Assembly (NCBI RefSeq): GCF_009730335.1
Contig: NZ_CP046315.1
Coordinates: forward strand, 1,798,001-1,862,000
DNA length: 64,000 bases
DNA from: Schaalia odontolytica
GTDB lineage: Bacteria > Actinomycetota > Actinomycetes > Actinomycetales > Actinomycetaceae
Reading direction: 5' to 3'
In this document: piece by piece, positions 48,533-55,583 of the stretch
Layout of the letters: every line of letters starts with the position of its first letter
Position numbering within the stretch: position 1 is the stretch's first letter
The notes under the pieces: model-generated
Database searches by the model: none
Seen by the model: the letters and a program-made list of their open reading frames with translations, nothing else
Told to the model about the DNA's origin: nothing
Position numbers and translations under genes: made by a program

Positions 48533-48568
48533 GTGAGGGGCGCTGGAGAACTCTCCGGCGCCCCTCAC
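48533..48568. repeat. 36-bp hairpin, left copy of an inverted pair
   Basis: GTGAGGGGCGC (48533-48543) pairs with GCGCCCCTCAC (48558-48568); GGAGA and TCTCC extend the stem almost to the loop. It lies 11 bp after the subtilase stop and after the PTS terminator. Its reverse complement matches the hairpin at 51973-52008 except for three loop bases. It can act as a bidirectional terminator or mark the edge of the inserted-looking module. Confidence 0.8.
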
Positions 48569-48579
48569 CATGTCACGCC

Positions 48580-49788
48580 CTACTTTCTATGGAACCTCGG
48601 GCTCGTGCCCAAGTGGATGGGGTAGGTGTTGTCTTTGTTGGTGATCTGTGATTCGTCGAGGCCGCGGTAGGCGTAGGAATTGTCGTAGGCGATTTCGGTG
48701 GGATCGACGAGCCCGTCGGCGTACTGCTGGACCTCTGCGGGGGTGGGGCTGGTACCGCCCCCCTTGTCTGCCAGCGGATTCTCGTCGGGGTACTGGCTCG
48801 GGTCAGTGTTGAGCATCTTTCCAGGGTTAATAGCCCCATAACCGCTATAGATATTCTGTCCTTCTGCAGGCAACGTAGCGGTATTGATGAGTAACTGTAA
48901 CAGTTGGTTCGCGGTTGCGTTGGGCCACTTTGCGCGCGCCTGAGCGAGAGCTCCAGCAACAATGGGGGCGGAATAAGAGGTGCCCTGGGTAGTGCCGATT
49001 TTGCCGTCAGATATTAAGCGTTCAACAAATGGTCCACCAACCGCTGCAGTTGTCACTCCCTGGCCCCACGATGAGTAGGAAGCAAACTTTCCTTTGTCAT
49101 CAATAGCAGAGACCCCGACAACGCCAGACCACCAGGATAGGGAGGTATCATTTTCGTCCTTTCCCGCATTACCCGCTGCAGCGGTAATAATGACTCCCTG
49201 ACTCATGGCCCGGGCTATCGCCCACTTCAGATTGTTCTCATGTTCTCGACTCGATGCCGAGAAACTGATGATGGATGCGCCATCATTTATAGCGTGATTA
49301 ATTAGCGAAGGGAGACCGATAAGAGGGATCTTTGCCGCAAGCTGACAATCGTGCTCAACTGTGCTTGAAGAGTCGTGGCTCTGGTAGGAAAGAAGTGTCG
49401 CGTCGGGAACGACTCCGTAGTCACGAGAAACTAGAAGGGAGGCTATACCCGTTCCGTGGTTTGTGTGTTCGGAACTTGAATTGACCGTACAGGGAGTCTT
49501 GTCAATAATGTTTGCTCCTGCCAACTCGGGGACGGAGGTATCAACTTTTCCATCAATGAGCGCGACGGTAACTCCCTTTCCCGTGTAGCCCTTTGCTCGC
49601 GCGGCGTCGAGGTGGTAGTACGAGAAGTACGCCTGGTCGGCGGCCGTGATCTGACGGTCGTCCGCGTGCGTAGGGGTGGCTGCCAATGCGCTGCCTGCCA
49701 AAGCAAGCACGCATCCAGATGCTACTGCAGCGCGCCGTGAGCCTTTCCTCAGAGCATTGGTGAGCACCGCCTGTCGTACCGTCACCAT
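48580..49788 (-). CDS. Secreted subtilase (S8 family), mycosin-like
   Basis: A 402-residue serine protease. A signal peptide (RRAAVASGCVLALAGSALA, to about residue 36) is followed by the catalytic domain with Asp79 (VALIDGKVD), His111 (TNHGTGIAS), oxyanion Asn207 (AAAGNAG) and Ser271 (GTSYSAPIVAGAL). Cys100 and Cys148 could form the disulfide seen in mycosins. The C-terminal membrane anchor of MycP proteins is missing, so it may be released. It overlaps the EspB-like gene by 7 nt (ATGGTGA); an ATG at 49803 is an alternative start. Its likely substrate is the EspB-like protein. GC is visibly lower than in neighbouring genes. Confidence 0.87.
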   Translation of the reverse strand: MVTVRQAVLTNALRKGSRRAAVASGCVLALAGSALAATPTHADDRQITAADQAYFSYYHLDAARAKGYTGKGVTVALIDGKVDTSVPELAGANIIDKTPCTVNSSSEHTNHGTGIASLLVSRDYGVVPDATLLSYQSHDSSSTVEHDCQLAAKIPLIGLPSLINHAINDGASIISFSASSREHENNLKWAIARAMSQGVIITAAAGNAGKDENDTSLSWWSGVVGVSAIDDKGKFASYSSWGQGVTTAAVGGPFVERLISDGKIGTTQGTSYSAPIVAGALAQARAKWPNATANQLLQLLINTATLPAEGQNIYSGYGAINPGKMLNTDPSQYPDENPLADKGGGTSPTPAEVQQYADGLVDPTEIAYDNSYAYRGLDESQITNKDNTYPIHLGTSPRFHRK

Positions 49789-51347
49789 TGGTTGGGATCC
49801 CATCCGTCGTCGCGGCGGCGTGCCGGCGCAATGTCCTTGTCTGTACCGTACGTCTGAGACAACGGATTGACGTATCCACGTGGCAGCGCGTCGTCATCCT
49901 CATCCTCGATGCGGAAGGCCTCGTACTTGCGGCGGCGCTGCTTCTTATCTTCCTTCGCGCCACCGGCACCAGCGCCGGAGGCACCCATGAAACCGCCCCG
50001 CTGACCGGCGGCAGCACCCTGCCCGGCGGCAGCTCCTGCCGATTGACCGGAACCTGGTGGCGTGTAGGTGCCCATGCCCGTTCCGCTGTACGTTCCCGCA
50101 CGCAGAGCGGACGAACCAGCTACCGCACTGCCACGACCGAGCGCTCCGGCACCAGAGGTGCCAAACGAGCCTGCTCCTACGCCTCCCATTCGCCCCATAG
50201 CCCCCATGCTAACGGAACCCATGCGAGCAGCTCCCCGTAGGCCGAGAACTCCAGCCCCCATCACACCGATGCCGCCAAGGCGGCCTGCTGTTTGGGATTC
50301 CGCAGCACGAGAAGCATTCAACCCCCACAGCGGATGATCACGGTCGATCGGAGGGGCTGGAGTATGCCCGCCAATGACGCCGTTTGCGTGCCGGTCTCCA
50401 TTGACGCGCGTGTGCAGCAGGTCCATGTCCATGAGATCCTGCGGGTCAGTGATCGGATTCGCGCGCGAACCTACTTCTCCCTCAGGGAAATAACGGCTCG
50501 GCACGCGCGGCGACTGCATGACGCGCTGGTTGATGCCTTCGCCGTTGTCGTATCCTCCCGGATAAAGACCCGAGTCTGAACCCCTTAGATCGGCGTTGCC
50601 GAATGCATCCGAACGCGAACGTCCGTAGGCACCGCCCTCATACGGAGAAATAGTGATATGCCCTTTTTCGAGGGCATCCGCTGAGTCCTTTGGGATTTCA
50701 GGAATGGGAGTCCAGTCGCCTCGGTCGGAGAGGTTAGGTCCAGTATCGGTGTGCCCCTGTAACTTTGAGCTCAGATTGTTCATCGTAGATTCGAGGTGCT
50801 CGATGATTTCGGTGGACTTTGCCTCCCGCTGTGCGTTGGCCTGCGCTTCGACAGCGTTGACGTACGCGGCACCGGTGACAACAAGGGAGTTCACGAACTG
50901 TCCCGGAAGACCGAAGTTGGAGGCGACAGGGATTGTCACCGTAGCAACGTCACGCATAGCTTCGGTCATCGGATCCAACAACGTGGGCGACAGCTGGCGG
51001 GCTTCCTCAGCGGCTAGCATGATCGCGCGGCGCGCCTCAACGTAGTACGACATGCCTGTCAGGTAGAAGTTTGCCTGGCCATTGAATCGATTAAAGGCAC
51101 GCACCGCCTCGGCGCTCATCGCATCGCCGGCCTGCCCCGTGAAGCCCTGGTGATCCTTGAAATGCTCAATCTTCTCCTGAGCCTTGCGGATAGCCTTAAC
51201 GACGGTCGAATGTTCGTCGTCCCAGCCGTAGAGCTTTTCATTCTCCGGCGCGCTGTTAGCGAACTGCATCAAGCGGTCGTACATGGGTGAAGACACCAAT
51301 TCTATAATCTCCTTGATCCAGTATGTTTCAGTAGCTATTGGGCTCAT
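49782..51347 (-). CDS. EspB/PPE-like protein, probable type VII secretion substrate
   Basis: A 521-residue protein without a Sec signal. Residues 1-200 are long amphipathic helices with a WXG-like turn (FTG, 69-71) in QGFTGQAGDAMSAEAVRAF; 200-350 are polar; 355-460 are Gly/Ala/Met-rich and probably disordered; the last 60 are highly charged and end WDPNQW. The plan recalls ESX-1 EspB, which is cleaved near its C-terminus by the mycosin protease encoded nearby. The start ATG 51347 overlaps the upstream gene by 20 nt. Family assignment is by architecture, not by a motif I can prove. Confidence 0.65.
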   Translation of the reverse strand: MSPIATETYWIKEIIELVSSPMYDRLMQFANSAPENEKLYGWDDEHSTVVKAIRKAQEKIEHFKDHQGFTGQAGDAMSAEAVRAFNRFNGQANFYLTGMSYYVEARRAIMLAAEEARQLSPTLLDPMTEAMRDVATVTIPVASNFGLPGQFVNSLVVTGAAYVNAVEAQANAQREAKSTEIIEHLESTMNNLSSKLQGHTDTGPNLSDRGDWTPIPEIPKDSADALEKGHITISPYEGGAYGRSRSDAFGNADLRGSDSGLYPGGYDNGEGINQRVMQSPRVPSRYFPEGEVGSRANPITDPQDLMDMDLLHTRVNGDRHANGVIGGHTPAPPIDRDHPLWGLNASRAAESQTAGRLGGIGVMGAGVLGLRGAARMGSVSMGAMGRMGGVGAGSFGTSGAGALGRGSAVAGSSALRAGTYSGTGMGTYTPPGSGQSAGAAAGQGAAAGQRGGFMGASGAGAGGAKEDKKQRRRKYEAFRIEDEDDDALPRGYVNPLSQTYGTDKDIAPARRRDDGWDPNQW

Positions 51348-51831
51348 CGTGAGACGGTGTTTGCCCAACAGTATTGGATGTTTCCTGCTGCTCGCTTTCG
51401 TGCTCGTCGCCCTGCACAGCATCATCCTTGGGCTTATTCTCACTCGTCAATTTGTCGATGGTCTCCTGTGAATAGACCTTATGCGCGCTCTCTCCCTGAT
51501 TCAGCGACAGCAGCGCGGTACTGACAGCGGCCATCGCGGCGCGAGCATCCTCCTCGGTCCCCTCGAAGTCCGCCACCGCCTGATTTACTTTCACGTCCAT
51601 ATCGCCGACGAACTGCGCTTCATGTGCCATTTGCGAAGAAAAGGCCGTCAGGAATGAACGCACTGTCTTTCCCATGTCCTGAGCTGCGTTTTCCGTTGTC
51701 CAATGCCCGAACATCTGCGCCATCGCGAGCACATTGGCGGACACGGCGGAGGCTGCGAGTTCCTGCCCACTGTCGTGTACATCATGACGCGCCTGCGCAT
51801 GACGTTCCGAATCAAAAGCAACGTCTGGCAT
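51328..51831 (-). CDS. EspC/WXG100-like small helical protein
   Basis: A 167-residue protein, first gene of the module. The first 115 residues are helical with a GHW turn near 42-44, and the pattern SFLTAFSSQMAHEA then DFEGTEEDARAAM resembles EspC of ESX-1; the secretion motif Y-x3-D/E is present as F-x3-E. The C-terminal 50 residues are acidic, Gln-rich and probably disordered. The Shine-Dalgarno is GAAGGAG. It probably forms a complex with the EspB-like protein. No ESX core gene (eccB, eccC, eccD) lies in the window. Confidence 0.6.
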   Translation of the reverse strand: MPDVAFDSERHAQARHDVHDSGQELAASAVSANVLAMAQMFGHWTTENAAQDMGKTVRSFLTAFSSQMAHEAQFVGDMDVKVNQAVADFEGTEEDARAAMAAVSTALLSLNQGESAHKVYSQETIDKLTSENKPKDDAVQGDEHESEQQETSNTVGQTPSHDEPNSY

Positions 51832-51859
51832 TGCCCAGCTCTCCTTCAGTTGAACCCAG

Positions 51860-51910
51860 CCTCGCTCCTCGGCAGCGAGGTAACCACCTAGTCACAGTCT
51901 ATCGATGGAA
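51860..51910 (-). promoter_or_regulatory. Promoter region of the subtilase/EspB-like operon
   Basis: A hairpin CCTCGCT (51860-51866) with AGCGAGG (51874-51880) sits in the leader, and TAGACT on the minus strand near 51899-51904 is a plausible -10. The DNA between 51890 and 51970 is AT-rich for this window. Confidence 0.4.
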
Positions 51911-51972
51911 GCTGAATTCCTGCGAGGATTTACTATCCTTCGGACACAACAGAATGACAATATTGATTGTCA

Positions 51973-52008
51973 GTGAGGGGCGCCGGAGAACACTCCAGCG
52001 CCCCTCAC
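51973..52008. repeat. 36-bp hairpin, right copy of an inverted pair
   Basis: GTGAGGGGCGCCGGAGA (51973-51989) pairs with CTCCAGCGCCCCTCAC (51993-52008), loop ACA region. It equals the reverse complement of the 48533-48568 copy except in the loop. It lies 33 bp after the aroD stop and can serve as the aroD terminator on the minus strand. Confidence 0.8.
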
Positions 52009-52040
52009 GCTGCACAGCAACCGGCCGCGCACGACAGGCT

Positions 52041-52865
52041 CTAGGCCTCGCCTACCTCGACGATATCCAGGACGGTTCGCACCTGCTCGACGGTGAATTG
52101 GCCGGGGGCACTCCCCTCCCACCCGGGCAGGGTCGCGAAGGTGGCCGCGGAGCCAAGGGCGGATCCGATCAGGCGTGTGGGCGCGCCGTGCTCCCCCATG
52201 GAGATGCCGATGACGGGACGGTCGTAGGCCTCGCGCGCCCACGCCTGCGCGGCCAGGACGCGGGCCGCGTCCGTGGCGTTGGTCGCCATGCACGCGAACT
52301 TCAGGACGTCAGCGCCCGCGTAGTTCATGGCCGCAAGAACCTCGGCGAGCTGTTCGTCGCCGGGCGTCGCCTCACAATCGTGGAAGGAAGCGACGACGAT
52401 CGCGCCGGCCTCGTGCGCCTCCTCGATGAGAGCGGAAGATCCGTCTCGCGAGATCTCCACGTCGACACCGCCCGCGAAGGACGCAAGCCGCCGCACCAGG
52501 GCGCAGTATTCCTCGTCATCCAGGTAGGCCTCGCCGCCCTCGACCGACGTGCGGATGGTCGCCAACACCGGCAGGGGCGAGGAATCCGCGACATATCGGG
52601 CCATGCGCACCAGGTCCTCCTCCACGTCCGAGGCGGCCACGAAGTGCGACCCCACGAGGGAAGACAGGAAGGTGTCGGCCCTCCACTCGACGATGTCCGC
52701 GCGGCACAAGGCCAGCGCCTCAACCTGCCCGCTCAGGGCTGCCGCATCCCCGCTGACGGGAACGATGACCTGGGTACGTCCCCCGAGCGTCGCCTTCTTG
52801 GCGGCTCGCCCGATGGTGACGAGTCCGGGCGCAGGGTCGGGGTCGGGCGCAGATGAGTAAGGCAT
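52041..52865 (-). CDS. aroD: 3-dehydroquinate dehydratase, type I
   Basis: A 274-residue shikimate-pathway enzyme that uses a Schiff base. Active-site residues are visible: Glu60 and Arg62 (DIVEWRAD), His162 (ASFHDCEATP) and Lys189 (DVLKFACMA); ISMGEHGAPTRLIGSALGSAATFA near 223 is the C-terminal signature. The ATG at 52865 has AAGGA 4 nt upstream and follows dusB by 11 bp, so it probably shares its transcript. The first 25 residues are a variable extension. Confidence 0.94.
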   Translation of the reverse strand: MPYSSAPDPDPAPGLVTIGRAAKKATLGGRTQVIVPVSGDAAALSGQVEALALCRADIVEWRADTFLSSLVGSHFVAASDVEEDLVRMARYVADSSPLPVLATIRTSVEGGEAYLDDEEYCALVRRLASFAGGVDVEISRDGSSALIEEAHEAGAIVVASFHDCEATPGDEQLAEVLAAMNYAGADVLKFACMATNATDAARVLAAQAWAREAYDRPVIGISMGEHGAPTRLIGSALGSAATFATLPGWEGSAPGQFTVEQVRTVLDIVEVGEA

Positions 52866-52876
52866 GATTCCTTCGC

Positions 52877-54193
52877 TTAGTATCCGATTTCTGCCAGGTG
52901 CAGGCGATCTCGTTCGCTCTGCGTGAGGGAGGGGTGGTCCAGCCAGCCGTCGGGCAGGTGGGGGGTCTTTTCGCCACCGGCTCGGCCGCGAGGTCCGCGT
53001 GCTGCGGGCGGGAACGCCTGGTTGAGGTCCAGGTCCGCGAGGCGCTCGTGGAGCTCCTGCAGGGTCGAGACCATGGACAGGGCGTGGCGCTGGGGGCCGC
53101 CGACGGCAAATCCGCGCAGGTACCAGCCGATGTGTTTGCGCATCTCGCGCAGCGCTCGCCCCTCGTCGCCCTGGTCGACGACGCACCAGGCGGCGTGGCA
53201 CTCGATGACGGAGACGACCTCGGCGAGGCTGGGGCCGGGCGGGATGGACCCGCCGTGGTAGGCGGCGACGATGTCGCGGAAGATCCAGGGGCGTCCCTGG
53301 GCGCCGCGCCCGACGCTGATGCCGTCACAGCCGGTCTGTTCCAGCATGGCCAGGGCGTCGGCGGCCTCGAAGACGTCGCCGTTTCCGAAGACGGGGATGT
53401 CGAGCAGGTCCTTCAGGCGCGCGATTTCGTCCCAGTGGGCGTGTCCCGCGTAGTGCTGGTTCTGGGTGCGCGCGTGCAGGGTGAGGGCGGCGGCGCCGAG
53501 CTTTTGCGCACTCAAGGCGGCGTCCGTCGCGGTCTCGTGCTCGGAGTCGATGCCGATGCGGATCTTGACGGTCACGGGGATCTCGCGCCCCGCTCGCTCC
53601 CCGGCCTCGTCGCAGGCGCGCACCACGGCACCCACGAGGTCGGAGAACAGGTCGCGCTTCCAGGGCAGGGCCGCTCCCCCGCCCTTCTTCGTCACCTTGG
53701 GGACGGGGCACCCGAAGTTCAAGTCGATGTGGTCGGTGAGGTCGCGTTCGACGAGCATCGTCGCGGCCTTTGCCATGACGGCGGGGTTGACGCCGTAGAG
53801 CTGCAGGGAGCGCACGCGCTCGGCGGGGTCGGGGCGCACCATTTCCAGGGTGCGTTCGTTCTCCTCGACGAGGGCGCGGCTGGTCACCATCTCGGTGACG
53901 TACAGGCCTGCGGGCGCGTCCACGCGCGGGATGGTGACGTGGCGCGGCTCGTTGGAGCTTTCGCCGGGTGCCTTCGGGGACGAGGCCGTGGCCCCCTCCC
54001 CCGACTCGGCCGCCCAGGAGGGGATGCCGACGGGTCGCAGGTGGTCGGGCAGGCCCGACTCGCCCATGATGCGGCACAGGCGTCGGAAGGGCACGTCCGT
54101 CACCCCGGCCATGGGGGCCAGGACGACGGGTGTCCACAGGCGCAGCGGCCCCACGCGAAGAGGGGCCGCTGCGGATGTTGAGGCTATCTGCAA
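52877..54193 (-). CDS. dus: tRNA-dihydrouridine synthase with an internal insertion
   Basis: A 438-residue flavoenzyme that reduces uridines in tRNA, closest to DusB. LRLWTPVVLAPMAGVTDVPFRRLCR near 18-42, the catalytic Cys in LNFGCPVPKVTKKGGGAAL near 157, and FGNGDVFEAADALAML and GRGAQGRPWIF are present. About 49 residues (roughly 46-95) are inserted between RIMGE and GLYVTEMVTSRAL, where other DusB proteins are continuous. This insert contains a copy of the GACGAGGCCGTGGCC repeat (53979-53993). The annotated TTG start, 1 bp after the glyS stop, lacks a clear Shine-Dalgarno. Confidence 0.9.
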   Translation of the reverse strand: MQIASTSAAAPLRVGPLRLWTPVVLAPMAGVTDVPFRRLCRIMGESGLPDHLRPVGIPSWAAESGEGATASSPKAPGESSNEPRHVTIPRVDAPAGLYVTEMVTSRALVEENERTLEMVRPDPAERVRSLQLYGVNPAVMAKAATMLVERDLTDHIDLNFGCPVPKVTKKGGGAALPWKRDLFSDLVGAVVRACDEAGERAGREIPVTVKIRIGIDSEHETATDAALSAQKLGAAALTLHARTQNQHYAGHAHWDEIARLKDLLDIPVFGNGDVFEAADALAMLEQTGCDGISVGRGAQGRPWIFRDIVAAYHGGSIPPGPSLAEVVSVIECHAAWCVVDQGDEGRALREMRKHIGWYLRGFAVGGPQRHALSMVSTLQELHERLADLDLNQAFPPAARGPRGRAGGEKTPHLPDGWLDHPSLTQSERDRLHLAEIGY

Positions 54194-54194
54194 G

Positions 54195-55583
54195 TCAGCA
54201 GCCCAGGCGTTCGATCAGGTACGACTTGACCTTGTCGAGCGGGATGCGCACCTGCTCCATCGTGTCACGCTCGCGGATGGTGACGGCGTGGTCTTCGATC
54301 GAGTCGAAGTCGTAGGTGATGCAGAAGGGGGTACCGATCTCGTCCTGGCGACGGTAGCGGCGGCCAACGGCGCCGGCATCGTCGTAGTCGACGTTCCAGA
54401 TGCCACGCAGCTCGTCAGCAAGCTCCTGGGCGGGGCCGGTCAGTTCGGGCTTGCGGGACAGGGGCAGGACGGCGGCCTTGACGGGGGCCAGGCGCGGGTC
54501 CAGCTTGAGAACGACGCGCTTGTCGACGCCGCCCTTGGCGTTGGGGGCCTCGTCCTCGTGGTAGGCCTCGATGAGGAAGGCCATAAGGGAACGGGTCAGG
54601 CCCGCCGAGGGCTCGATGACGTAGGGGGTCCAGCGTTCCTTGGTGTTCGGGTCGAAGTAGTCGAGCTTCGCGCCGGAGGCTTCGGAGTGGACGGTCAGGT
54701 CGTAGTCGGTGCGGTTGGCGATGCCTTCGAGCTCGCCCCACTCGCTACCCTGGAAGCCGAAGCGGTATTCCAGGTCGACGGTGCGCTTGGAGTAGTGCGA
54801 GAGCTTCTCCTGCGGGTGCTCGTACTCGCGCAGGTTCTCCGGGTCGATGCCGAGGTTGACGTACCAGGCCTTGCGGTAGTCGATCCAGTACTGGTGCCAT
54901 TCCTCATCGGTGCCGGGCTCGCAGAAGAACTCGAGTTCCATCTGCTCAAACTCGCGGGTACGGAAGATGAAGTTGCCGGGCGTGATCTCGTTGCGGAAGG
55001 ACTTGCCGATCTGGCCGATGCCGAACGGCGGCTTCTTGCGCGCGGCGTTCATGACGTTCGCATAGTTGATGAAGATGCCCTGCGCGGTTTCGGGGCGCAG
55101 GTAGTGCAGGCCGGCCTCGTCGTCAACGGGCCCCAGGTAGGTCTTGAGCAGACCGGAGAAGGCGCGGGGCTCGGTCCACTGGCCGCGCACGCCACAGTTG
55201 GGGCAGGCAATGTCGTCGTTGGACAGGGTGGATTCCTCGACGCCCTTCTTTTCGGCGAGTTCTTCGATGAGCTGGTCCTGGCGGGCGCGCTTGTGGCAGT
55301 TGAGGCACTCAATGAGCGGGTCGGTGAAGGCCTTGACGTGGCCGGAGGCGACCCACACTTCGCGCGGGAGGATGACGGAGGAGTCCAGGCCGACGACGTC
55401 TGCGCGGCGGCGGACCATGGCGTTCCACCAGGCGCGCTTGATATTTTCCTTCAGTTCCACGCCGAGCGGGCCGTAGTCCCACGCGGAGCGGGTGCCACCG
55501 TAGATGTCACCGCAGGGAAAGACGAAGCCGCGGCGCTTGGCCAGGCTGATCACATTGTCGAGGCGGGAGGGTCCCTTAGCCAC
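54195..55583 (-). CDS. glyS: Glycyl-tRNA synthetase (alpha2, class II)
   Basis: A 462-residue synthetase that charges tRNA-Gly. Motif 2 region [28 protein letters not shown] near 205-232, motif 1 [26 protein letters not shown] near 16-41, motif 3 [13 protein letters not shown] near 335, and a Cys pair set ([13 protein letters not shown]) forming a zinc site near 94-130 are present. It starts at GTG 55583 with AAGGAG upstream. dusB follows 1 bp later. Confidence 0.97.

Follow-up and report, generated by a model that had tools for sequence, protein, structure and literature searches.

A scattered family of EspC-like/EspB-like/anchorless-mycosin modules in Schaalia odontolytica and its relatives, with an EspB-like linker that covaries with the protease core

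The window is a stretch of 64,000 nucleotides of Schaalia odontolytica (positions 1,798,001 to 1,862,000 of contig NZ_CP046315.1, assembly GCF_009730335.1); its genome (2.43 Mb, one contig) is called G000 below, other genomes are referred to by G numbers and the stretches read by L numbers. Between a phosphotransferase system (PTS) gene reaching to 48433 and aroD beginning at 52041 (both named by reading), the window carries on the minus strand three genes, for an EspC-like helical hairpin, an EspB-like protein and a mycosin-type subtilase without membrane anchor, with a hairpin at either end (Table 1). The block is one member of a scattered family of such modules, in which a hypervariable linker of the EspB-like protein covaries with the catalytic core of the mycosin encoded next to it. 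The first-pass annotation took the block for an orphan ESX-like operon, a substrate with its own protease, and that reading is partly supported. The three genes and the lower GC content of the block (0.55–0.63 in 1-kb windows versus 0.69–0.71 over 52000–54500 and 0.60–0.67 across the PTS gene) are as annotated. As then written, the EspB-like frame runs from 51347 to 49782 (521 amino acids), but the TTG at 51299 is most likely the start, since relatives begin at an aligned MVSSPMY and AAGGAG lies upstream. With that start only the EspB-like and mycosin genes overlap (by 22 nucleotides), and the overlap claimed between the EspC-like and EspB-like genes disappears.

Table 1. Features of the block (coordinates of the window).
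Feature	Coordinates	Strand	Evidence
Hypervariable EspB-like linker, residues 181–205 of 505 (QGHTDTGPNL...)	50685..50759	-	Identity scan, covariation
Anchorless mycosin-type subtilase, 407 amino acids	48580..49803	-	PF00082 Peptidase_S8 E = 3e-27; TIGR03921 E = 8.7e-48
Exchangeable catalytic core, about codons 75–325	48829..49581	-	Profile of synonymous divergence (dS) versus G155 copies
Codons 175–198, strongest covariation with EspB-like linker; aligns with subtilisin about 118–141	49210..49281	-	Alignment to 1s01_A
Conserved C-terminal mycosin tail H[LI]GTSPx[YF]H, in place of membrane anchor	48583..48615	-	Pattern count, 87/92 frames
EspB-like protein, 505 amino acids, probable TTG start	49782..51299	-	Alignment with relatives
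EspB-like conserved C-terminal tail LPxGYVNPxSQTYGxDKDxxPAxxxDDGWDPxQW	49785..49904	-	Alignment of 28 members
EspC-like helical-hairpin protein, 167 amino acids	51328..51831	-	W44/E47 invariant, F-x3-E near end of helix 2
PTS-side hairpin, 36-bp imperfect palindrome, 3′ of mycosin and PTS gene	48533..48568	.	Homologous hairpins in G155, G066, G139, G009
aroD-side hairpin, 36-bp imperfect palindrome	51973..52008	.	Shuffle folding test and core-pattern scan
Intergenic region upstream of espC, presumed promoter	51832..51972	-	Similar in G155 and G066

The label of orphan does not hold for the genome: EspB-like paralogues occur at several other sites of G000, one of them beside EccC. The absence of ESX machinery nearby holds: the single EccC above the family cut-off (2309965–2311995) is about 460 kb away, in the one ESX locus, together with EccB-, EccD-, WXG100- and MycP-like genes (by reading). 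This MycP, in which the subtilase domain was confirmed, has a C-terminal hydrophobic stretch. Next to EccC stand EspC-like, EspB-like and anchorless mycosin genes (L041). Further modules, whole, broken or reduced, are found in the stretches starting at 155k (module site named 160k), 371k, 418k, 1242k and 2255k, with a lone mycosin near 287k; in all, 12 anchorless mycosins and MycP were read in G000, and up to 15 anchorless frames in another genome. Across 35 genomes of the genus, the mycosin model gives 16–20 matches in eight (G000, G155, G114, G150, G085, G066, G139 and G009) and 0–7 in the other 27. G000 has 17, and among the matches listed are three long subtilases (about 700–1476 residues) and the 13 read.

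In the wider family, the EspB-like profile matches 12 of 151 genomes, and EccC passes its cut-off in every one of these; another 15 genomes have an EccC of this kind and no EspB-like match. All 42 full-length EspB-like genes read (in stretches chosen around EspB or mycosin matches) have an anchorless mycosin directly downstream. Two conserved EspB-like peptides, scanned against 84,980 species genomes, gave 77 stretches and 22 confirmed loci, all in G139, G066, G085 and G009; the scan misses relatives without those peptides, and records close to the window genome possibly fall outside it. In the more distant G102, a single EspC-like/EspB-like/mycosin set is found within the ESX locus, which suggests that the satellite modules came from there. 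Variants of the arrangement occur as well. In L036 (4425–9547), a frameshifted EspB-like gene is followed by two tandem mycosins and preceded by a 180-residue lipoprotein-like gene nearly identical to L041:1000–1542 of the ESX locus. G102 has a natural EccB–subtilase fusion in one frame of 893 residues (L107:15467–18148; PF05108 and PF00082). In G042 (L108/L109; by reading), an ESX-region satellite has its own WXG100-like pair, and there and in the ESX locus, proteins of 303–319 residues with a C-terminal hydrophobic stretch replace the mycosins.

The mycosin of the window has, as annotated, a full catalytic set (D84, H116, N212 and S276) and, by pattern, no C-terminal hydrophobic stretch; a Sec-type signal peptide is seen by eye. 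TIGR03921 is by far its best family in the library (163.2 bits, below the cut-off of 278.75). The anchored MycP of the same genome is also under that cut-off (220 bits), which is passed in only one of the 35 genus genomes. In eight genomes of the genus, G000 included, 92 anchorless frames were read, a set that is not complete for all of them; two of the frames, at contig ends of G139, have 600 or more identical bases in common and are possibly a single gene. With a simple hydrophobic-stretch pattern, the C-terminal anchor is present in 6/6 MycP and in none of the 92. Instead, 87 of these end in H[LI]GTSPx[YF]H (three complete frames lack it, two are cut off before it), a tail found in none of the six MycP. 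C105 and C153 are invariant in 22 aligned sequences. The catalytic His is present in all 92 and the Ser in 90 (two cut off); Asp occurs in 87, with Gly in its place in five (L036:8312–9547, L119:1719, L126:2774, L133:2630 and L135:4703). The first four of these have cores 92–97% alike across four genomes and may thus form a kept, inactive class.

The site itself is unstable. The block lies between the same PTS and aroD genes in six genomes, pointing toward the PTS gene in G000, G155 and G066 and toward aroD in G139, G114 and G085. In G066 the aroD side retains the T-run that follows the mycosin-end hairpin in G139, and the block has therefore probably been inverted among relatives. The same-species strain G155 carries the block twice in tandem, with a further hairpin copy between the two; the outer one is without most of espB and espC. 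The window block is a mosaic of the two, since its mycosin core matches copy A of G155 (99–100% over 49000–49600) and its espB, espC and mycosin 3′ piece (48800–48899) match copy B. Elsewhere, espC–espB is gone and the end of the EspB tail is kept with the mycosin, at different sites in L039 (G000, the 2255k stretch) and L117 (G155); the 371k module of G000 is absent from G155, where another gene takes its place. A clean joining at one hairpin in strains lacking the block, proposed as a check with the first-pass annotation, is not found in G009, which has no block and one hairpin: only 7–8 bases past it match the flank of the PTS-side hairpin in G066, not the pattern of a plain hairpin–hairpin join.

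Both hairpins of the window fold far better than shuffled sequence (z from −4.6 to −8.0). The 14-base core of their arm occurs in the whole genome only in these two (a reversed control pattern gives no match); they are locus-specific palindromes. The first-pass annotation had them as reverse complements differing in three bases. The 36-bp pair exists, but the direct comparison gives the same 3/36 differences, and from the window alone the imperfect palindromes read equally well as direct or inverted. G114 and G085 lack this hairpin, with the block in the same place. In G114, a 543-residue protein with an alpha/beta hydrolase domain (PF06259) is encoded between mycosin and aroD (L044:8026–10947), together with two similar proteins, of which the one tested matches DUF4853; these are perhaps an ESX effector with its partners. 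G085 (L045:7640–10739) resembles G114, and a similar hydrolase gene adjoins aroD in G150 (L052; by reading).

Between G000 and G155, ten anchorless mycosin comparisons are possible at matching places, with MycP as control. The core dS is at least 1.0 in six of the ten, versus 0.051, 0.224 and 0.009 for neighbouring genes and 0.06–0.09 for the anchored MycP. The values are 0.40 at 160k, 1.48 at 418k, 2.21 at 1242k and 0.05 at 2255k; 1.03, 0.10, 3.2 and 1.01 in the ESX locus; and, at the window site, 0.085 with copy A and 1.03 with copy B (ends 0.09–0.13). The ends of the six diverged mycosins are mostly at dS 0.06–0.6, except for one ESX copy with a C-terminal end at 1.7 and another with protein differences from end to end. 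Core types cross species borders: copy B of G155 goes with G066 at the window site (86%), and the 418k core of G000 is 93% identical to that of G066 and only 69% to that of the same-species G155.

In the EspB-like protein, a single stretch, just after the helical domain, is sharply hypervariable. Over 36 close pairs, nucleotide identity is 0.57 at residues 181–195, 0.74 at 196–225 and at least 0.81 elsewhere; with gaps counted, the Gly-rich part around 361–385 is variable too (0.73). Polar residues, Pro and Gly abound in this linker. Its identity was compared with that of the mycosin core within eight groups defined by EspB similarity (27 modules, 33 pairs), without two truncated mycosins and without groups of two, since centring removes most of the information of the latter. 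Gene order was compared at the window site and, for the remaining sites, between G000 and G155; other members are grouped by similarity. P-values come from 2000 shuffles (floor 0.0005) and are corrected for the maximum over all windows (p_max).

EspB residues 181–205 correlate with the mycosin core at r 0.80 (nucleotides) and 0.83 (amino acids), both with p_max 0.0005; with the remainder of EspB and the ends of the mycosin controlled for, the partial correlations are 0.77 and 0.845, respectively. The EspB region between linker and protease (windows from 229 to 505) ranges from r −0.49 to 0.23. On the mycosin side, the strongest windows are at 175–198 (r 0.83–0.86, p_max 0.0005; 0.90 in a later check), with p_max < 0.05 also at 91–120, 139–216 and 247–270, and none before 91 or after 270. 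Residues 181–185 align with subtilisin 124–128; we take this strand and the segment near 100–104 to line the S1–S4 sites, and 118–141 to hold the S1 wall. The correlation holds when any one group is omitted (r 0.79–0.90); for three comparably variable control segments, r is −0.15, −0.37 and 0.07. When truncated mycosins are entered as gaps, r is 0.50 (p 0.0004; 29 modules, 40 pairs), rising to 0.80 without the two truncated ones; a variant that skips gaps in the core gives r 0.76 within 12 groups.

Long helices are modelled, at modest confidence, in both partner proteins. The turn annotated as WXG-like is an aromatic-x-G turn in a long helical hairpin, with the pattern FxG and not WxG: F69 and G71 are invariant in 28 aligned members, and in the model (modest, predicted TM score (pTM) 0.54) helices 40–66 and 71–117 stand on either side of this turn. 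The C-terminal tail is highly conserved in the same 28. The EspC-like protein is modelled as a helical hairpin (H8–41 and H48–112, pTM 0.41); W44 and E47 are invariant in 18 members, and the secretion-like F-x3-E motif noted in the first annotation is present in 14 of the 18. The espC gene is apparently frameshifted at the 418k site of G000 (L037:7469–8026) and at the window site of G139 (L042:4084–4611). Searches with the WXG100 and EspC models, proposed for these two products, gave no significant match. In a Pfam scan of 28 EspB-like members no family is significant (WXG100 in 2/28, best E 0.18), and EspC (PF10824) is hit by 2/18 EspC-like members (best E 0.036), the protein of the window giving no match. 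The EspB-like profile finds nothing credible among PDB sequences (best E 0.24). Foldseek gives no match at E < 0.1 for the EspB-like model, with EspB absent among the matches listed; for the EspC-like model, ESAT-6-type and PE25 chains are among the matches, none below E 0.5.

We favour, with a probability of about 0.6, a reading in which the modules encode matched pairs, each mycosin cutting the linker of its own EspB-like partner, and in which the block is a satellite of the single ESX system. The EspC-like and EspB-like proteins would leave the cell as a PE/PPE-type pair through the distant ESX machine, and the mycosin, which lacks the membrane anchor of MycP, by a route of its own through its signal peptide. 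Outside the cell, the mycosin would cut its partner in the hypervariable linker, and the helical domain before it would be released from the conserved C-terminal part; this is the best guess by likeness to EspB and MycP1. Selection for diversity, with recombination between copies and strains, may then swap cores and linkers jointly, so that pairs keep fitting.

Several observations weigh against this. Windows in the EspB helical domain reach r 0.49 (amino acids), which does not survive correction (p_max at least 0.23). The 418k pair of G139 and G155 shares its core (0.87) and not its linker (0.48). The catalytic Asp is replaced by Gly in 5/92 mycosins, and several mycosins are without intact EspB (L039, L082, tandem copies). 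Two of the six diverged comparisons (the window versus copy B and the first ESX copy) have a matching core in another G155 tandem copy (94–95%) and are thus rearrangements rather than new cores; for the other four, no close core is found among the G155 copies read. The WXG100 and EspC matches are not significant, and the fold match to PPE41 is weak and on a par with those to unrelated helical folds (BAR domains). According to passages of PMC5082899, mycobacterial MycP stabilises the machine as well, a role apart from proteolysis.

The rife recombination (the tandem duplicate in the sister strain, the mosaic in the window, core types shared across species) would suit whole-block alleles that travel together, with gene conversion among paralogues erasing the signal in between and the variation being antigenic (immunity or phage), without any fit of protease and substrate; both parts may indeed be surface exposed. 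The correlation, however, peaks at the segment aligned with subtilisin 118–141 and is absent from three similarly variable segments, and we consider this account unlikely. The same covariation is expected if the linker is a cognate docking or inhibitory segment, the EspB-like protein carrying or restraining a protease that acts on competitors, a host protein or the cell wall. Such a role would agree with the mycosins that outlast the loss of espC–espB and with the 92 mycosin frames versus 42 full-length EspB-like genes, but the linker follows the helical domain and is polar and rich in Pro and Gly, like a processing site, and the known relation of mycosin and EspB is cleavage; we think it rather less probable again.

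Least probable, to the point of being improbable, is that the block is a mobile element with the two hairpins as its ends. Its opposite orientations at one site, the relic T-run beside the aroD-side hairpin of G066 and the G155 tandem copy bounded by the same hairpin are what such an element could leave. Yet no transposase or integrase gene is found among the open reading frames of the block, no other module of G000 has the hairpin core, and G114 and G085 carry the block without the hairpin.

Mycobacteria have one anchored mycosin per ESX system; unlike ESX-1, G000 has, as read, 12 unanchored mycosins besides one anchored MycP. What the modules share with EspB/MycP1 of ESX-1 is an ESX-linked helical substrate together with a subtilisin-like mycosin, although the block proteins, unlike EspB, have no significant match to type VII secretion substrate models. 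Passages of PMC5082899 and PMC9811218 describe the processing of EspB by MycP1 in ESX-1, in which the C-terminal part is removed and oligomer formation favoured; as of 2016, EspB was the sole known substrate of any mycosin, as stated in the former. PE25–PPE41 likewise combines a small helical hairpin with a long helical domain, and both are among the fold matches of the two partners; these matches are weak, unrelated helical folds score as well, and the turn is FxG here. In polymorphic toxin systems, variable parts recombine between conserved ends and have a cognate partner, as in the block family; here, in contrast, none of the three proteins gave a match to a toxin or immunity domain, and it is a protease core and a linker that vary. 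The duplicated ESX-5 gene sets of M. tuberculosis, ESX-5a among them, are likewise accessory modules derived from an ESX locus, and they may serve part of its substrates (PMC4852179). We know of no proteases in these ESX-5 satellites, nor of any protease–substrate diversification there. Satellite ESX modules and the processing of EspB by a mycosin are already known. Within titles and the starts of abstracts, in a search that most subscription journals lay outside, nothing was found on Schaalia or Actinomyces EspB-like/mycosin modules, on mycosin diversification or on a multi-copy recombining set of matched mycosin–substrate pairs.

To our knowledge, it is not yet understood what purpose the cutting of substrates by ESX proteases serves. 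The modules offer dozens of diverged natural pairs with a predicted cut site and specificity residues, with which mycosin specificity is directly testable in vitro. More tentatively, at rather less than even odds, they may form a polymorphic lock-and-key repertoire, with one ESX machine and many satellite pairs, in which the recognition surfaces, linker and substrate cleft, diversify in step through recombination and old alleles are shared across species. Such a repertoire could be a cell-surface contingency or kin-discrimination system in which only matched pairs are processed. If the matched-pair reading is true, the modules would represent a novel sort of rapidly evolving system, probably exposed at the surface, in a Schaalia-like genus that lives on people.

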